A stretch of DNA of 43,173 nt from Desulfobulbaceae bacterium. Its GTDB lineage: Bacteria; Desulfobacterota; Desulfobulbia; Desulfobulbales; SURF-16. The stretch lies in contig JAQIBE010000285.1 of the NCBI GenBank assembly GCA_027859235.1, positions 1 to 43,173 on the forward strand. The letters are read 5' to 3'. Positions 1-7,661 of this stretch are shown piece by piece. Under the pieces are notes generated by a model, which ran no database searches, was not told where the DNA came from, and saw only the letters and a list, made by a program, of their open reading frames with translations. Position 1 is the stretch's first letter. Each line of letters opens with the position of its first letter. Position numbers and translations under genes: made by a program.

Positions 1-81
1 ACTATTAACATCCTCCACTACCTCCATGAATTTAAGTCCACGGAGAGGTTAATCGGAGGGGTCAATTTTGGGCGCTGTTTT

Positions 82-528
82 CTATCTTAAGGGGGTCATT
101 ATTGCACGCTGATTAACATACGAATGCAGGTAATTGAATTCTTCGCCTCTTGAACGTTTTATAATTGCTTCAATATCTGTGTCGTTTTGAATATTAAATG
201 GCTTTTTTGTATCAATAAAATAAAAAGTTTCGATCTTTTCCCAAGTTAGGTTTGTGTTCCCTATGAATTGCATGCCTAAAATAAAAGATTCGAATTTTTC
301 GTTTAAACGAATTAACTCATCTTTAATAAACTCTGGCTTAATATTTTCTACCCAAATTTGTAAATAACCTACTTTGCTGCCATTCTTGTCGGGTATTAAA
401 AAAGAAGTATTTTGGGCATTCCATAGAGATTGTCCTGACTTGTATAGGATAGACAAATTCTTAATTTCATAATTAATCTGCAACGTTTGCTTATGTGTAT
501 TCATGCTTTCATATTTAATCTTTATCAT
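82..528 (-). CDS. hypothetical protein, possible integron-cassette gene
   Basis: I do not recognise this 148-residue soluble protein. It is rich in Ile, Asn, Lys and aromatic residues and has no signal peptide, membrane segment or Cys cluster. I start it at the ATG at 528 (MIKIKYES), because the longer track version runs back through the end of the preceding gene; the ATG at 504 (MNTHKQ) is an alternative. From 528 it overlaps the stop of the small membrane protein upstream by 14 nt, so the two are probably translationally coupled in one cassette downstream of the attC site at 897-1031. AT-rich composition unlike the core genes further right suggests acquisition. Function unknown. Confidence 0.55.
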   Translation of the reverse strand: MIKIKYESMNTHKQTLQINYEIKNLSILYKSGQSLWNAQNTSFLIPDKNGSKVGYLQIWVENIKPEFIKDELIRLNEKFESFILGMQFIGNTNLTWEKIETFYFIDTKKPFNIQNDTDIEAIIKRSRGEEFNYLHSYVNQRAIMTPLR

Positions 529-889
529 CTTGATCGGCAACTTTTCGCAAAGGTGCCACCAGAGTATTGAAAAAGTCACTCCAGGCAATTTTGAATCCGA
601 GTATTCCACCGCCAATCAAGCCTACCCAAACACCAAAACTGTCCTTACCAGTAATTTGTGCGCCAATATATGCGCCCAAAATTGGAAACCCTAAAATAAA
701 AACCAACATTAGAAGATATGTCAGTAGTATACCGACAGCTGTAAAAGGTGAGACAATTAAGCCAATACCAAGCAAAAACCCCCATAATGGACTATCAAAT
801 CTTTGATAGTAATCGCCAATATGCATTAATTGGAAAAGTATTATGATTATTCCCAATATCGGTAGAGCAACTCTTAGTAGACTCTTCAT
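515..889 (-). CDS. small integral membrane protein
   Basis: About 124 residues with roughly three hydrophobic helices: an N-terminal segment (PILGIIIILFQL), a long Gly/Leu/Ile-rich stretch (WGFLLGIGLIVSPFTAVGILL then LLMLVFILGFPILGAYIGA), and a shorter one after GKDSFG. The C-terminus is acidic (DQDDKD). I choose the ATG at 889, because an AGGTG ribosome-binding site sits six bases upstream; the track's GTG at 898 lies inside that site. The start is only about 8 nt from the GTTAGGT core of an attC site, the usual spacing for the first gene of an integron cassette. It overlaps the next gene by 14 nt. No family recognised. Confidence 0.6.
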   Translation of the reverse strand: MKSLLRVALPILGIIIILFQLMHIGDYYQRFDSPLWGFLLGIGLIVSPFTAVGILLTYLLMLVFILGFPILGAYIGAQITGKDSFGVWVGLIGGGILGFKIAWSDFFNTLVAPLRKVADQDDKD

Positions 890-896
890 TATTTTC

Positions 897-1031
897 ACCT
901 AACGTTGAATTAACCTGAAAAAAGGGAGCGTAACGAGGTGTGCAGGAATGTCGCAAACTTAGTAGAGGGACGGAAAGTAAAGCCAACCACCTAACCCCTT
1001 TTTTTGTACCAGGTTTAATGACTTGTTAGGG
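897..1031 (-). other. attC: attC recombination site (integron cassette), minus orientation
   Basis: Read on the minus strand, this 135-bp segment begins CCCTAACAAGTCATTAAACC and ends GGTTAATTCAACGTTAGGT. The arms pair imperfectly and the first carries one extra A, the extrahelical base typical of attC top-strand R''-L'' arms. The end GTTAGGT matches the GTTRRRY core. The HNH gene's TAA lies inside the first core site and the next gene starts 8 nt past the second, as expected for cassettes. The centre is a long variable stretch, giving a VCR-like length. No integrase gene is in the window. Confidence 0.78.
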
Positions 1032-1973
1032 GCCTTCCCCTGAATACACCTCATACGAGAAAAGAATATCATTACTTTCATCCAACGGGGTTTCCTCTTT
1101 AATTCTACGCGTTACCCCATCACTCCCCTTCCCAAAAGATTTCCAGCTCTCTGCCGGAAGCCCCTCAAATATCATCGGACATTCTTCATGGCTATATATT
1201 CCACCAACCACTCTTAGGTGCTTATTCCATTCTAATGCCCAGAACCAACAGCCTGGTTTGTCTATGATGCGGCATAGCATGGCCTTAAAGTTCCCATCAG
1301 CAGTATTTATGTTTGCGTAGCATCTCAGTTCCTCTGCACGTTTGGATAACTCCGTAAGCTCAGCATTACCCCAATCACCGTGATTGTATGCCCTATGAAA
1401 CCAAAAATTAGATTCTGGCAGTAGGCATGTTCCTGACTCTTTATCCGGTGCCTTGGATGTTATTAAAGAAAACAGCCCTTGAACATGGTAAAATGATAGT
1501 TCCCTAATGTATTGTTGACTGACCTGTGGTGGTGAGGTCGCTTCGAACTTCATACTCAATGCACCAATATTGAACTTGAATACATGAGTGTCAGTCGCAT
1601 CTTTAACCAGTACACCAGGTTTTAATGGATGGAAATCACGAGACGCTTTTGATATTGCCCTTTCAACGTATTCACGCTTTTCCTGTTTATGAATTGAGTT
1701 TAGTAGCGTCACACTTGACACATGCCTTTCAAGCTCTGATTTGTTACTATTACATACCTCACACGCCCTGAATATAAAGTTAAACTGGCTTCCTTCTTGG
1801 AAAGATCCAGTTGGAACAAATTGCCTCCCAATTAGATGCTCTTTGTTGGAAGGTGCTTCAGATCCAATTCCAACAGGTACACCACAATACAAACAATATT
1901 GATTTGATTTCTCTTTCTTTCTGTCAAACCAAACTACTGGTTGGTTTTTTCTGAACTTATGGACTGGTTTCAT
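1026..1973 (-). CDS. HNH-type endonuclease domain protein
   Basis: A 315-residue protein. The N-terminal 90 residues carry a split zinc-finger/HNH arrangement: CLYCG near residue 27, then EHLIGRQF near 45, then ACEVCNSNKSELE near 70. This CxxC...EH...CxxCN...K pattern is that of HNH nucleases, where the His and Asn residues form the beta-beta-alpha metal site. The remaining 220 residues are not recognised and may give specificity or bind a partner. The stop codon lies within the attC site at 897-1031, marking this as a gene cassette. There is no clear ribosome-binding site before the ATG at 1973. A role in DNA cleavage, such as phage defence or mobile-element biology, is inference. Confidence 0.7.
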   Translation of the reverse strand: MKPVHKFRKNQPVVWFDRKKEKSNQYCLYCGVPVGIGSEAPSNKEHLIGRQFVPTGSFQEGSQFNFIFRACEVCNSNKSELERHVSSVTLLNSIHKQEKREYVERAISKASRDFHPLKPGVLVKDATDTHVFKFNIGALSMKFEATSPPQVSQQYIRELSFYHVQGLFSLITSKAPDKESGTCLLPESNFWFHRAYNHGDWGNAELTELSKRAEELRCYANINTADGNFKAMLCRIIDKPGCWFWALEWNKHLRVVGGIYSHEECPMIFEGLPAESWKSFGKGSDGVTRRIKEETPLDESNDILFSYEVYSGEGP

Positions 1974-2010
1974 TTTTTACGACCGCTGATTCTTGTTTTG
2001 CACCTAATAA

Positions 2011-2136
2011 GTTATTATCCGGTTTCCTGATATCATTCCGGGTGAAGACAATTTGATAACGATTTTTCGTTCATGATACCATTTTCTAACTGGTTATCAT
2101 TCAATAACGAGTGATAACCGGAAACTGGATATCAAC
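2011..2136. repeat. nested inverted repeats with GATAAC/GTTATC motifs
   Basis: The outer arms GTTATTATCCGGTTTCC (2011-2027) and GGAAACTGGATATCAAC (2120-2136) are complementary at about 14 of 17 positions. Inside lies a perfect 8-bp inverted repeat, GGTTATCA (2092-2099) and TGATAACC (2112-2119), and a small AACGA/TCGTT hairpin near 2060. The end polarity is wrong for attC. It could be a cruciform, an operator cluster or a transposon remnant. Confidence 0.6.
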
Positions 2137-2194
2137 ACATGATCCAAATTCCTCTATCTTTTCACCCATTCAGCCCTGAGCGAGCAGGGAGCCT

Positions 2195-2276
2195 GAAAAG
2201 GGAAAGAGAATTGCAGCATGTCTGAGCACCCCGCCAGGGGGTATAAACTCTGCGAGTTTCTGCAATTCCCCTTTTC
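2195..2276. repeat. imperfect inverted repeat, possible decayed mobile-element fragment
   Basis: The left arm GAAAAGGG...GAATTGCAG (2195-2216, with a 5-nt insertion) pairs with CTGCAATTCCCCTTTTC (2260-2276). A perfect AAACTC-TGC-GAGTTT hairpin (2245-2259) sits beside the right arm. Further out, CAGCCCTGAGC and GCAGGCCAGGGC look like additional loosely paired ends. No transposase is readable. Confidence 0.5.
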
Positions 2277-2605
2277 CGGCGGAAGGTGAGCGGTGCCGCA
2301 GGCCAGGGCAGTGGGGCCAACTTGAACCTAGCGATGGTGGCGGGAATTTGGCGTCAAAAGTCAAAAGCGGACTTGCCCCCCCTTGTCCTTGTTGCGCTTG
2401 ATCTTACAGGCCGGCGCCATCATCAAAGAGGTGGCACCCTGGTGGACAAGCTACCCGAGGCCTTGACGACTGGCCCTGGTTTTGTCGAGAAGATGACGGG
2501 TTTATGTCGTTGATTTTTTGTATGGATTTTATTATCAATAATTGATAATTTGAGAAATGGTGGTGCAGTACTAAAATCTTCATTAATAGAGGGGTATTAA
2601 TTCTT

Positions 2606-3055
2606 ATGAAAAGAGCAAGTTGTATAAGTTGTATTCTGTTGATTTTGGCATTCTCGCTGTCTGGTTGTTTGGGGATGATGGCAAATACACCTTATGAAGC
2701 AATAGCCCCCAATAACGGTGATGCACTGGTCTATGTCTATAGGCCTGAGAGTGTCTGGTGGAGAGGCACCCCTTTTATTGTGTATGCAGGGGATAAAAAG
2801 TATGACCCTCTTATTAATAATGCTTACTACCCAGTACATGTTAAGCCTGGAACCGTATTTTTTAGGTTGACGACCAAGTCTACAGTCTTTGGTGAGCAGC
2901 GAGTTGATGCTGTTGAGATGAGTGTGGAGAGTGGTAAAGTGTATTACCTTAAGGTGAAGCCGAGACCAGCTGGTGCCTTCAAGTTTGTCATCATGACGAG
3001 TGATGAGGGATCAAAAGAGGTAGCTAGTACAAAGTTCTACTACACGGAAAAGTAA
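2606..3055 (+). CDS. DUF2846-like lipoprotein
   Basis: A 149-residue protein with a type II signal peptide: basic start MKRAS, hydrophobic core, and lipobox LSGC with the lipidated Cys near residue 21. The mature part (DALVYVYRPESVWWRGTPFIVYAG..., then VKPGTVFFRLTT and SGKVYYLKVKPRP) has the beta-rich pattern of DUF2846 lipoproteins, whose role is unknown. It is expected at the inner leaflet of the outer membrane. A GAGGGG ribosome-binding site lies about 13 nt before the ATG. It is a monocistronic plus-strand gene followed at 180 nt by the attC site at 3236-3307, which fits an integron cassette; the gap is longer than usual. Confidence 0.7.
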   Translation: MKRASCISCILLILAFSLSGCLGMMANTPYEAIAPNNGDALVYVYRPESVWWRGTPFIVYAGDKKYDPLINNAYYPVHVKPGTVFFRLTTKSTVFGEQRVDAVEMSVESGKVYYLKVKPRPAGAFKFVIMTSDEGSKEVASTKFYYTEK

Positions 3056-3095
3056 GATCAGGTAGGAGTAGTTGCCATACGTAAAAAAGGGGGGC

Positions 3096-3147
3096 GGAGG
3101 GATTAAATTTGAACAGGAAGGATGATTGGTTAAATAATAATCCCTCC
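3096..3147. repeat. 10-bp perfect inverted repeat downstream of lipoprotein gene
   Basis: GGAGGGATTA (3096-3105) and TAATCCCTCC (3138-3147) are perfect complements around a 32-nt AT-rich spacer, with a G-run before and a C-run after. There is no U-tract directly after the stem, so it is a doubtful terminator. Confidence 0.55.
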
Positions 3148-3235
3148 ATCTCCTTTTCCCCTAAGAGTTGCCTGGTGCTGCTCATCATTTCTGTAACTCA
3201 ATAAATATTTAACTGTGATAGGGAAATACAAAAAG

Positions 3236-3307
3236 CCCTAACTACGCGCTCAAAATGGACGCAAATTCCGCGGCTCTCTATTTGCGCCTTTTAGCTCGGC
3301 GTTAACC
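3236..3307 (+). other. attC: attC recombination site (integron cassette), plus orientation
   Basis: A 72-bp imperfect palindrome. It starts CCCTAAC and ends GTTAACC. The left arm GCGCTCAAAATGGACGCAAAT pairs with ATTTGCGCCTTTTAGC, leaving three single unpaired bases (C, T, A), all in the left arm. These extrahelical bases are the signature that orients attC on this strand. The loop is TCCGCGGCTCTCT. The orientation matches the upstream plus-strand lipoprotein gene. This is opposite to the attC at 897-1031. Confidence 0.8.
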
Positions 3308-3353
3308 TTGCCACATCCAACCTCATGAATTTCTCAATTCACCCAAGGTTAAC
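3301..3353. repeat. 10-bp inverted repeat sharing the attC end
   Basis: GTTAACCTTG (3301-3310), which includes the right core of the attC site, is perfectly complementary to CAAGGTTAAC (3344-3353). It may mark a cassette insertion junction next to the core gene dxs. The rest of 3056-3435 shows no gene. Confidence 0.5.
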
Positions 3354-3435
3354 CTTCCTACTGTGAATGTCATATCTGATAATGTCTTATCGTTAAAGTT
3401 GTCAGGCCATGTCTGAACAACTACAGCTTAACCCG

Positions 3436-5316
3436 TTATTCTTGCAAATCCATTGCCGCCTGGATAATCGCTGGCGGGTCAATTTTAGCGAGTTGCCACA
3501 GCGTAGATTGCGGGCCATGTTCCATAAAGATGTCGGGAATGCCCAGCACTGTACAGTCAACCTGGAGTTTCCGGCGGGCAAATAATTCCAGGATGCCGCT
3601 GCCGAAGCCGCCTTTCTTGACATTATCTTCAATGGTAACAACCTTGCCAATCTTTTCAGCCCACTGGCAGATCAGGTCCCCATCCAGGGGAGTGATAAAA
3701 CGTGGATTGATGACAGCAGCGCTGATACCAAGTTTCTGCAAACCTTCAGCAGCCTCCATGGCAGGGGCAACCCGATTGCCGATGGGGAGCAGGAGGACAT
3801 CAGTCCCTTCCTGCAATAACTCCCCCTTGCCGATGGCGAGTTTCTCATATCCTTCAGAGAGGGGAACCCCTAAACCATTTCCACGGCTATACCGGACGGC
3901 ACTGGGGCCGGGTAGGAATGTTGCCGTATAGAGCATGTTGCGTAATTCCTCTTCATCCTTGGGCGCCATAAACACCATGTTGGGGATGAAGCGAAAGAAT
4001 GAGAGATCAAAAACACCATGGTGGGTTGCACCGTCAGCCCCAACAACACCACCACGATCAATGGCAAAGGTGACGGGTAAATTGGGCAGGCAGACGTCAT
4101 GAATGATTTGATCCATGGCCCTTTGGAAGAAGGTGGAGTAGACCGCCACAACGGGTAGTATCCCCTCTGTGGCAAGACCTGCCGCAAAGGTTACGCCGTG
4201 CTGTTCGGCAATGCCCACATCGAAAAAACGATCGGGGAATTTCTCACTAAACTCCACCAGACCGGTACCTGCCGGCATGGCTGCGGTGATGGCCACAACA
4301 CGAGGATCTTTCTCCGCAAGGTCAACCATGGTCTCCCCAAAAATCTGGGTGTATGACGGAGGTGTTTTGGTTTTAGGAGGGAGTGGTATGCCTGTTGCCT
4401 TGTTAAATGGACCAACACCATGGAATGCCCCGGGGTTCTGTTCCGCAGGAACATAGCCTTTGCCTTTCGTGGTGAGGACATGGATAAGCACAGGGCCATC
4501 ATGGTGATCACGGACATTCTCAAATGTCTCCAGCAGGGCTGGAAGGTCATGACCGGCAATGGGGCCGATGTATTCAAATTTAAGGGCTTCAAACAACATG
4601 CCTGGGGTGAAAAAGCCCTTAAAGCTCTCCTCACTCTTCTTTAAAACCTGAAGAATGTTTTCGCCAACACTATGAAATCCTTTAAGGAATGACTCCATCT
4701 CTTTTTTGATGTGTACTATGGTTTTGCCGGAGAGTTTACGGCTCAAAAAGGTGGAAAGGGCGCCGACATTCGGGGCAATGGACATCTCATTATCATTGAG
4801 GATGACAATGAGGTTCTTGTCGAGATGGCCCGCCTGGTTGAGGGCTTCAAAGGCCATCCCCCCTGTCATGGAACCATCACCGATAACGGCAATGGCTCGG
4901 GCCGTGTCCCCTTTGAGGTATTTGGCAAGACTTATACCAAGGGCTGCCGAGATCGAGGTGGATGAGTGACCGGTGTTAAAGGTGTCATAGGGCGACTCCT
5001 CTCTCTTGGGGAAACCGCTTATTCCCTTGTACTGCCGCAGGGTGTGAAATTGATCCCGGCGACCGGTGATGAGTTTATGGGTATAGACCTGATGACCGAC
5101 ATCCCAAACCAGTTTGTCTGTGGGGGTATCGAAAATATAATGCAATGCCAGGGTGAGTTCAACCACCCCAAGGCACGGGGCGAGATGGCCACCGGTTACG
5201 CTCACCGTATCGATAATGGTTTCACGGATCTCTTCCGCAAGATTAAGGAGCTGCTTGGGGTCAAGAAGGCGCAGGTCTTCAGGGGAATCAATGTGCGATA
5301 ATATTTGAGAGGTCAT
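3436..5316 (-). CDS. dxs: 1-deoxy-D-xylulose-5-phosphate synthase
   Basis: A full-length 626-residue DXS that condenses pyruvate with glyceraldehyde 3-phosphate, the first step of the MEP isoprenoid pathway, in the cytoplasm with thiamine diphosphate and Mg2+. The N-terminal domain carries the His-rich [15 protein letters not shown] region and the thiamine-diphosphate motif [15 protein letters not shown] with downstream ILNDNEMSI near residues 150-180. The middle pyrimidine-binding domain has [15 protein letters not shown], and the C-terminal transketolase domain follows. It is last in the minus-strand xseB-ispA-dxs cluster, about 45 nt after ispA. It also feeds the IspH encoded at 13032. The large plus-strand ORFs beneath it are shadows. 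Confidence 0.98.
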
Positions 5317-6803: not shown

Positions 6804-7661
6804 GTGGAGAAGGGCTATTCTGAGCATACTGTAGCTAGTTATAGGCTCGATATTAGCGATTATAACTCTTGCGATAAGGGTGAGGCTGAAACCATTACCC
6901 TCACGAAGGATTCTATCCGGCGTTGGGTGTATGGGCTCAATAGCAATAAAAAGCCTGCCTCTGTTGCCCGGATGATCTCAGGCTTGCGGCAGTTCTGTCG
7001 TTTCCTCGTGCGGGAAAACTATCTTGTAACGGATCCAACCGCGTCCATCTCCATGCCAAAGATCGGCAAACACATCCCTGTCTTCCTCAGTGTTGACGAG
7101 GTCTTTTCCCTCATTGAAGAACCCCGGGGTGGCGATCGCTTTCATTTACGGGATACGGCAATTTTAGAATTGCTCTACTCAACCGGTATGCGTGTCTCTG
7201 AAATTTCAAAATGTGAACTTGCGGCGCTTGATTTTCAGCAGGGAATGGTTACCGTACTCGGCAAAGGAAAGAAAGAAAGACTGGTTCCTGTGGGGAATCA
7301 GGCCCTGGATGCGGTGCGTCATTATTTTCCCCAAAGGCAGTCTCTCATTGAGGCAAAGCTTAAAAGAGGCAGGCTCCATGCGGATGATCCCTTGTTTGTT
7401 AATAGCAGGGGGGGGCGTTTAACCAGTCGCTCAATTGAAAGAATGGTGGCAGGATATGGCCAGCGGGCAGGAATCGTTGTGCCGGTGACACCCCATGCCC
7501 TCAGACATTCCTTTGCCACCCATTTGCTTGAAATGGGTGCCGACCTGCGGGTGGTGCAGGAGCTGCTTGGCCATGCCAGTCTTTCCACCACGCAAAAATA
7601 TACTCATTTAACCATAGATCATCTCATGGATGTGTACGATAAGGCCCATCCGTTAAAGTGA
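6804..7661 (+). CDS. xerC: tyrosine recombinase XerC/XerD (5' end uncertain)
   Basis: A site-specific tyrosine recombinase that resolves chromosome dimers at dif. All catalytic residues are visible: Arg in STGMRVSE, Lys in LGKGKKERLVP, the HALRHSFATHLL box (His, Arg), His in LLGHASLSTTQ, and the nucleophile Tyr in KYTHL. The xerC-hslV-hslU order identifies a housekeeping Xer protein rather than a phage or integron integrase. The GTG at 6804 is only the first conventional start. The same frame is open back to 6732 and encodes ITLQHVALFLDWLRVEKG, which looks like a genuine Xer N-terminus, so translation probably begins near 6744-6750 at an ATT codon after an AGG. Confidence 0.93.
   Translation: MEKGYSEHTVASYRLDISDYNSCDKGEAETITLTKDSIRRWVYGLNSNKKPASVARMISGLRQFCRFLVRENYLVTDPTASISMPKIGKHIPVFLSVDEVFSLIEEPRGGDRFHLRDTAILELLYSTGMRVSEISKCELAALDFQQGMVTVLGKGKKERLVPVGNQALDAVRHYFPQRQSLIEAKLKRGRLHADDPLFVNSRGGRLTSRSIERMVAGYGQRAGIVVPVTPHALRHSFATHLLEMGADLRVVQELLGHASLSTTQKYTHLTIDHLMDVYDKAHPLK

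Follow-up and report, generated by a model that had tools for sequence, protein, structure and literature searches.

Oppositely oriented attC sites and probable debris of a dead integron beside dxs in a Desulfobulbaceae bacterium

How do two attC sites come to lie within 2.2 kb of each other on opposite strands, with no integron integrase beside them? The question is raised by a 43,173-nucleotide stretch of DNA (hereafter the window) that constitutes an entire contig (C166) of a Desulfobulbaceae draft genome (2.85 Mb in 333 contigs, 97% complete, 4.6% contamination); the left edge of the window is therefore a contig end, at which the left side of the locus is lost. A first-pass annotation, made from the sequence alone, had offered inversion, two independent insertions or the remnants of an integrase-less cassette cluster as explanations. 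In our reading, the locus probably holds the cassette debris of a dead integron, in two groups of separate origin that were rearranged via dispersed repeats.

The two attC sites and their cassettes

As a search of the window against Rfam at gathering thresholds returned nothing, an attC covariance model of our own was built. Twenty-two sites from the arrays of relatives made up an initial model (R1), which was searched over 23 loci, nearly all beside integrases; the 65 attC matches from these integrase-bearing relatives yielded a second model (R2), with the window excluded. One match of this training set is a reverse-strand duplicate, and the E-values are rough. Matches in arrays beside integrases lay almost all in the orientation expected from the integrase. 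In the window, R2 assigned 30.9 bits (E 1.5e-5) to site A (897..1031, minus strand) and 21.0 bits (E 0.0047, rank 2) to site B (3236..3307, plus strand), with the next-best match at 13.2 bits; neither site was reported on the opposite strand. Over 248 kb of other sequence, R2 gave 4 matches, all attC-like, of which 2 recur in the search of the bacterium's own genome and the other 2 are found next to an integrase, towards its cassettes. Background-level scores had been named at first pass as grounds for dropping the attC calls; both scores lie well above background. Both attC sites are thus real, and each terminates a gene cassette at its 3' end.

The architecture of the sites agrees with the first-pass annotation in coordinates, strands, core boxes, paired arms and extrahelical bases on one arm. 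Both have paired L''/L' arms, 5-nt spacers and extrahelical bases on the 5' arm, the last of which assign A to the minus strand and B to the plus strand. Site A, secure as an attC, comprises R'' CCCTAAC, spacer AAGTC and L'' ATT[A]AACC, followed by L' GGTTAAT, spacer TCAAC and R' GTTAGGT; its core boxes match RYYYAAC / GTTRRRY in 6 and 7 of 7 letters, and its ad hoc structural score of 28.0 corresponds to about 0.2 to 0.6 occurrences per Mb in shuffles. Site B reads CCCTAAC TACGC GCT[C]AAAA[T]GG[A]CGCAAAT ... ATTTGCGCCTTTTAGC TCGGC GTTAACC, with three extra 5'-arm bases, core boxes matching in 6 and 6 of 7 letters, unpaired outer core bases, an R1 score of only 9.5 bits and an ad hoc pairing score of 21.8, which is near chance (about 21 per Mb in shuffles). 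Site B is a good attC when model and context are taken together, and a moderate one by the sequence model.

Other measures were tried. A first pairing score was dropped as too loose (about 93 chance matches per Mb); under a stricter one, A ranked well and B poorly. The single-strand minimum free energies of A and B were no better than those of shuffles, so that folding by itself is no evidence, and DNA similarity of the two sites to plasmids gave nothing useful.

Each site lies downstream of a gene in its own orientation, as first described. The stop codon (TAA, 1028-1026) of an HNH-like protein gene (1026..1973, minus) falls within the R'' box of site A. The protein has weak PADLOC matches (NsnC, E 6e-5; PtuB, E 8e-4) and no Pfam match, and no homologues were found in family genomes, genome contigs, viral contigs or plasmids. 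Ahead of the gene, an inverted-repeat stretch (1995..2140, minus) that ends in an R'-like box ACCTAAT/ATTAGGT (2002-2008), with a DNA folding z of -2.8 to -3.0, received no R2 call; it is possibly the decayed attC of a preceding cassette, whose outer part would be gone where a dispersed repeat begins. A second HNH-like protein with Cys/His motifs is likewise encoded in a cassette of the same genome (L056 748-1485), and the same dispersed repeat lies on the 5' side of both genes.

Past site A, a small membrane-protein ORF (515..898, minus; a below-threshold glycine-zipper match only in Pfam) starts at the R' edge of the site. The ORF of the next minus-strand cassette (82..615), delimited from the ORF list, its translation and an insertion-sequence boundary, has no Pfam or NCBIfam match; its final codons lie inside the end of an IS21-family insertion sequence (1..118, minus; matches start at 118) that is itself cut by the contig end, so this cassette has lost its own 3' end and attC. 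The counterpart of 1..118 in the Solidesulfovibrio plasmid NZ_CP026539 lies directly upstream of istA, annotated as IS21 family.

On the plus strand, site B follows a DUF2846 lipoprotein gene (2606..3055; PF11008, 37.7 bits against a cut-off of 34.3), 180 bp past its stop codon, with an imperfect inverted repeat found by inverted-repeat search in between (I1, 3086..3157, plus). Homologues of the lipoprotein occur in 2 other genomes of the 258 searched in the order, and no attC was found in the surroundings of either.

Orientation and integron debris across the genome

The first-pass annotation presumed that arrays normally keep one orientation. For relatives, 150 candidates were scored per genome and neighbours within 4 kb were taken as pairs: among the 150 matches listed, 47 of 47 pairs agree in orientation. 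The window's own genome departs from this rule, with 5 pairs the same and 2 opposite (Fisher p 0.015 versus relatives); one of these two opposite pairs involves a weak 16.3-bit match, which belongs to a recognisable attC lineage.

The absence of an integrase, also claimed at first pass, extends beyond the locus, as the integron integrase genes of the host, a relative of sulfate reducers, are broken. The window contains no integron integrase apart from a XerC-type recombinase (6804-7661) that falls below the integron integrase cut-off, and no intact integron integrase was found in the searched 333-contig draft. The best match in the genome, on contig C267, covers residues 1-150 of 315 before its frame runs, within the contig, into a copy of the dispersed repeat that occupies 2149-2380 of the window; a fragment on C161 corresponds to the C-terminal end, is 50-77% identical to integrases of relatives and carries an internal stop. 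By comparison, full integron integrase genes occur in most relatives: a match above the family cut-off is present in 12 of 22 family genomes and, across the order, in 93 of the 160 genomes that are fairly complete. The sister species (G012) has two full-model-length integron integrase genes (C72, C101), but none of the candidates scored there matched attC within an E limit of 0.05.

The genome-wide search for further attC sites that the first-pass annotation had recommended returned, with R2, three minus-strand matches on C332, two plus-strand matches on C252, two on each strand of C66, and others on C89 and C240. Four attC copies (two on C252, one each on C267 and C66) form one sequence lineage, as expected of a resident integron. 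On C66, an attI copy 78-84% identical to the attI of relatives (L167 9644-9725; C66:14644-14725) heads the plus-strand cassette group; minus-strand cassettes lie on the opposite flank, and no integrase was found beside it. An intact intI and attI next to an array, i.e., a complete integron, was not encountered here. Two further observations concern these cassettes: plus-strand attC sites on C252 flank a Phd/RelE-type toxin-antitoxin pair (L168 7391-8278), and a nearly identical 48-bp attC, among the shortest seen, occurs on two contigs of the genome (L056 1510-1557 and L168 7391-7438).

Junctions, dispersed repeats and the origin of the locus

The right edge of the locus is formed by dxs (3436..5316, minus; 89% identical to its orthologue in the sister species). 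In the sister, skp lies 106 bp downstream of dxs; the dxs-skp order recurs in genomes of two other genera, and in several further genomes one gene separates the two. Synteny therefore breaks at dxs, with cassettes where the sister has skp, and the layout is not the ordinary conserved sequence of relatives, since the sister and several family members have skp beside dxs. The bacterium's own skp is on C305, which stops about 24 bases past the skp stop codon; no overlap was found between the C305 end and the window ends or the other contigs examined. Taken with the adjacency in relatives, this places the cassettes probably between skp and dxs, the physical join being deduced from gene order. With attC scores above background, a layout that is unconserved and no intact integrase in the 333-contig draft, the integrase-less cassette remnant proposed at first pass is the right class.

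At the edge of site B, on the dxs side, lies a 71-bp dispersed repeat, E (3302..3372, plus), the left end of which coincides with the G|TT crossover of the site: base 3302, the first base of E, directly follows the G of R'. On C252, an attC from another lineage is joined to a copy of E (93% over 71 bp) at this very point, with A replacing G; in another species (L185), a third attC meets E there; and in L072 an attC stops 4 bp short of a weaker copy. On C113 (91% over 46 bp), C119 and L186, the copies are preceded on their left by different sequence, with no attC recognisable there. The copies lie at window 3302-3372, L168 6224-6154, L055 1425-1490, L110 56-125, L185 2852-2784, L186 6864-6795 and L072 1529-1467, and only two named genomes, a Desulfocapsaceae MAG and Desulfopila sp. 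IMCC35008, share E. The arrangement on C252 is likewise divergent: a degenerate minus-strand attC set against E (L168 6225-6345) is followed by the plus-strand attC sites around the toxin-antitoxin pair. Chance is an unlikely reason for the coincidence of E and attC: a simple uniform model, drawn up once the pattern had been noticed, puts the probability of an attC junction in two of the four own-genome copies at about 1e-9. The sister's skp-dxs gap contains no E, and no E-containing allele of this locus without a cassette was found.

Two accounts of these junctions deserve weight. E may be a small mobile repeat whose insertions fall at attC crossover points, and not a place where cassettes are inserted, a reading of the outer edge of site B that we regard as plausible, if short of probable. 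The copies without a recognisable attC on C113, C119 and L186 indicate that E spreads by itself; against this, no remnant of a displaced R' follows E in the window, on C252 or in L185, and the window copy borders chromosomal sequence. Alternatively, the integrase would have acted here. Integrase chemistry would join the G of an attC to a genomic TT, so one possible reading is that cassettes were inserted at the edge of E, and the junctions hint at insertion at a recurrent secondary site. We advance only tentatively the wider proposal that E is such a recurrent target in this order, at which the integrase sets cassettes down at one exact base; were it true, a dispersed repeat and not an attI would set both the landing place and the orientation of stray cassettes.

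The two cassette groups meet at the dispersed repeat 2149..2380 (plus), other copies of which (79 to 92% identity) break the intI fragment on C267 and are found next to cassettes on C332 and a toxin-antitoxin-like pair on C113. In the sister species, a repeat at about 7006-7148 of L097 lies between the lipoprotein and glycogen-phosphorylase-like genes; the genome of the window contains many matches to it on other contigs, several of them at contig ends.

The opposite orientation most likely reflects separate origins of the two groups, joined at this repeat. The sites with their strands, the integrase fragments, the repeats and the loss of synteny are directly visible; from them we infer how events followed one another, what part the repeats played and that an integrase once acted here. 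An active integrase would have placed cassettes both at this position, in the probable skp-dxs interval, and elsewhere, after which the integrase would have been lost and the arrays would have decayed. The plus-strand group (lipoprotein, site B) would have come to be set against E beside dxs, the minus-strand group (HNH-like and membrane proteins) would have been joined to it at 2149-2380 by rearrangement, and an IS21-type element would have truncated the far side of the minus-strand group. Inversion, two insertions and cassette remnants, as listed at first pass, are not mutually exclusive; the class of remnant stands, and as to the mechanism the evidence favours separate origins with a join at a dispersed repeat. 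Weighing against this account are the 4.6% contamination of the draft and the start of the window at a contig end, as a result of which a gap among the 333 contigs could hide a longer array or an intact integrase. So do the moderate sequence-model score of site B and its separation from its gene by 180 bp and an inverted repeat, the small number (two) of opposite pairs, and the incomplete attC listings for relatives, with 150 candidates scored per genome.

The rivals to separate origins, not all of which exclude one another, fare unequally. A serious one, which we nevertheless consider rather unlikely, is that both groups descend from one former array that was split and partly inverted between inverted repeat copies. 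The repeat does lie exactly between the divergent cassettes, its copies occur in both orientations, and repeat-mediated inversion inside an array is documented (PMC11023631); on the other side, site B abuts E, which here borders chromosomal sequence and not another cassette, and only one copy of 2149-2380 is visible in the window, so that a second breakpoint would have to lie past the contig end. It is improbable that the locus is instead an assembly effect, the broken edge of a larger and possibly complete integron spread over contigs. Draft genomes do inflate the counts of integrase-less clusters (PMC9024848), and the attC sites on C332, C66 and C240 lie, as the window's start does, at or near contig ends; yet the C267 integrase is interrupted by a repeat inside its contig, the C161 scrap has an internal stop, and splitting does not explain opposite orientation within one contig. 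Least credible is that site A is the sole attC and the hairpin of site B arose by chance, since the near-chance ad hoc score, the unpaired outer core bases and the 180 bp to the gene are set against a held-out model that ranks B second, extra bases positioned as in attC, and a crossover base that starts repeat E, likewise at two other attC sites.

Relation to known integrons and integron remnants

The sedentary chromosomal integrons of the order (for example L065, L140 and L147) share the attC architecture described here, and a model built from their sites picks up both A and B; they differ from the window in having an integrase and attC sites all in one orientation. Read as remnants, the cassettes document integron decay in a little-studied, integron-rich order, with a broken integrase, scattered single cassettes and mixed orientation. 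Clusters of attC sites lacking integron integrases (CALIN, as defined by IntegronFinder) have been proposed to be degraded integrons (PMC9024848). The window resembles these in combining attC sites and cassette genes with no neighbouring integrase (PMC9024848), and differs in having one attC per strand in mixed orientation; as the default is at least two attC sites, IntegronFinder would call it a CALIN only if sites were clustered across strands.

In Vibrio cholerae, part of an array was inverted by recombination between insertion sequences, with integrase inactivation (PMC11023631). Opposite array segments together with integrase inactivation are found here as well; the Vibrio case arose in experimental evolution between two IS3 copies, whereas here other repeats are present and the event is reconstructed (PMC11023631).

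The window therefore represents a known kind of element in a decayed state and of mixed orientation, and its unusual detail is the outer edge of site B. A likeness to it is the attG insertion of cassettes attributed to Loot et al. 2024 in a later paper (PMC12901181), according to which cassettes outside the integron are joined to sequence of the genome at the G|TT crossover, as at site B. In contrast to attG insertion as conveyed by that citing paper (PMC12901181), the same 71-bp repeat recurs here at several junctions; if these reflect integrase action, E would constitute a natural site, defined by its sequence, at which cassettes land outside integrons.
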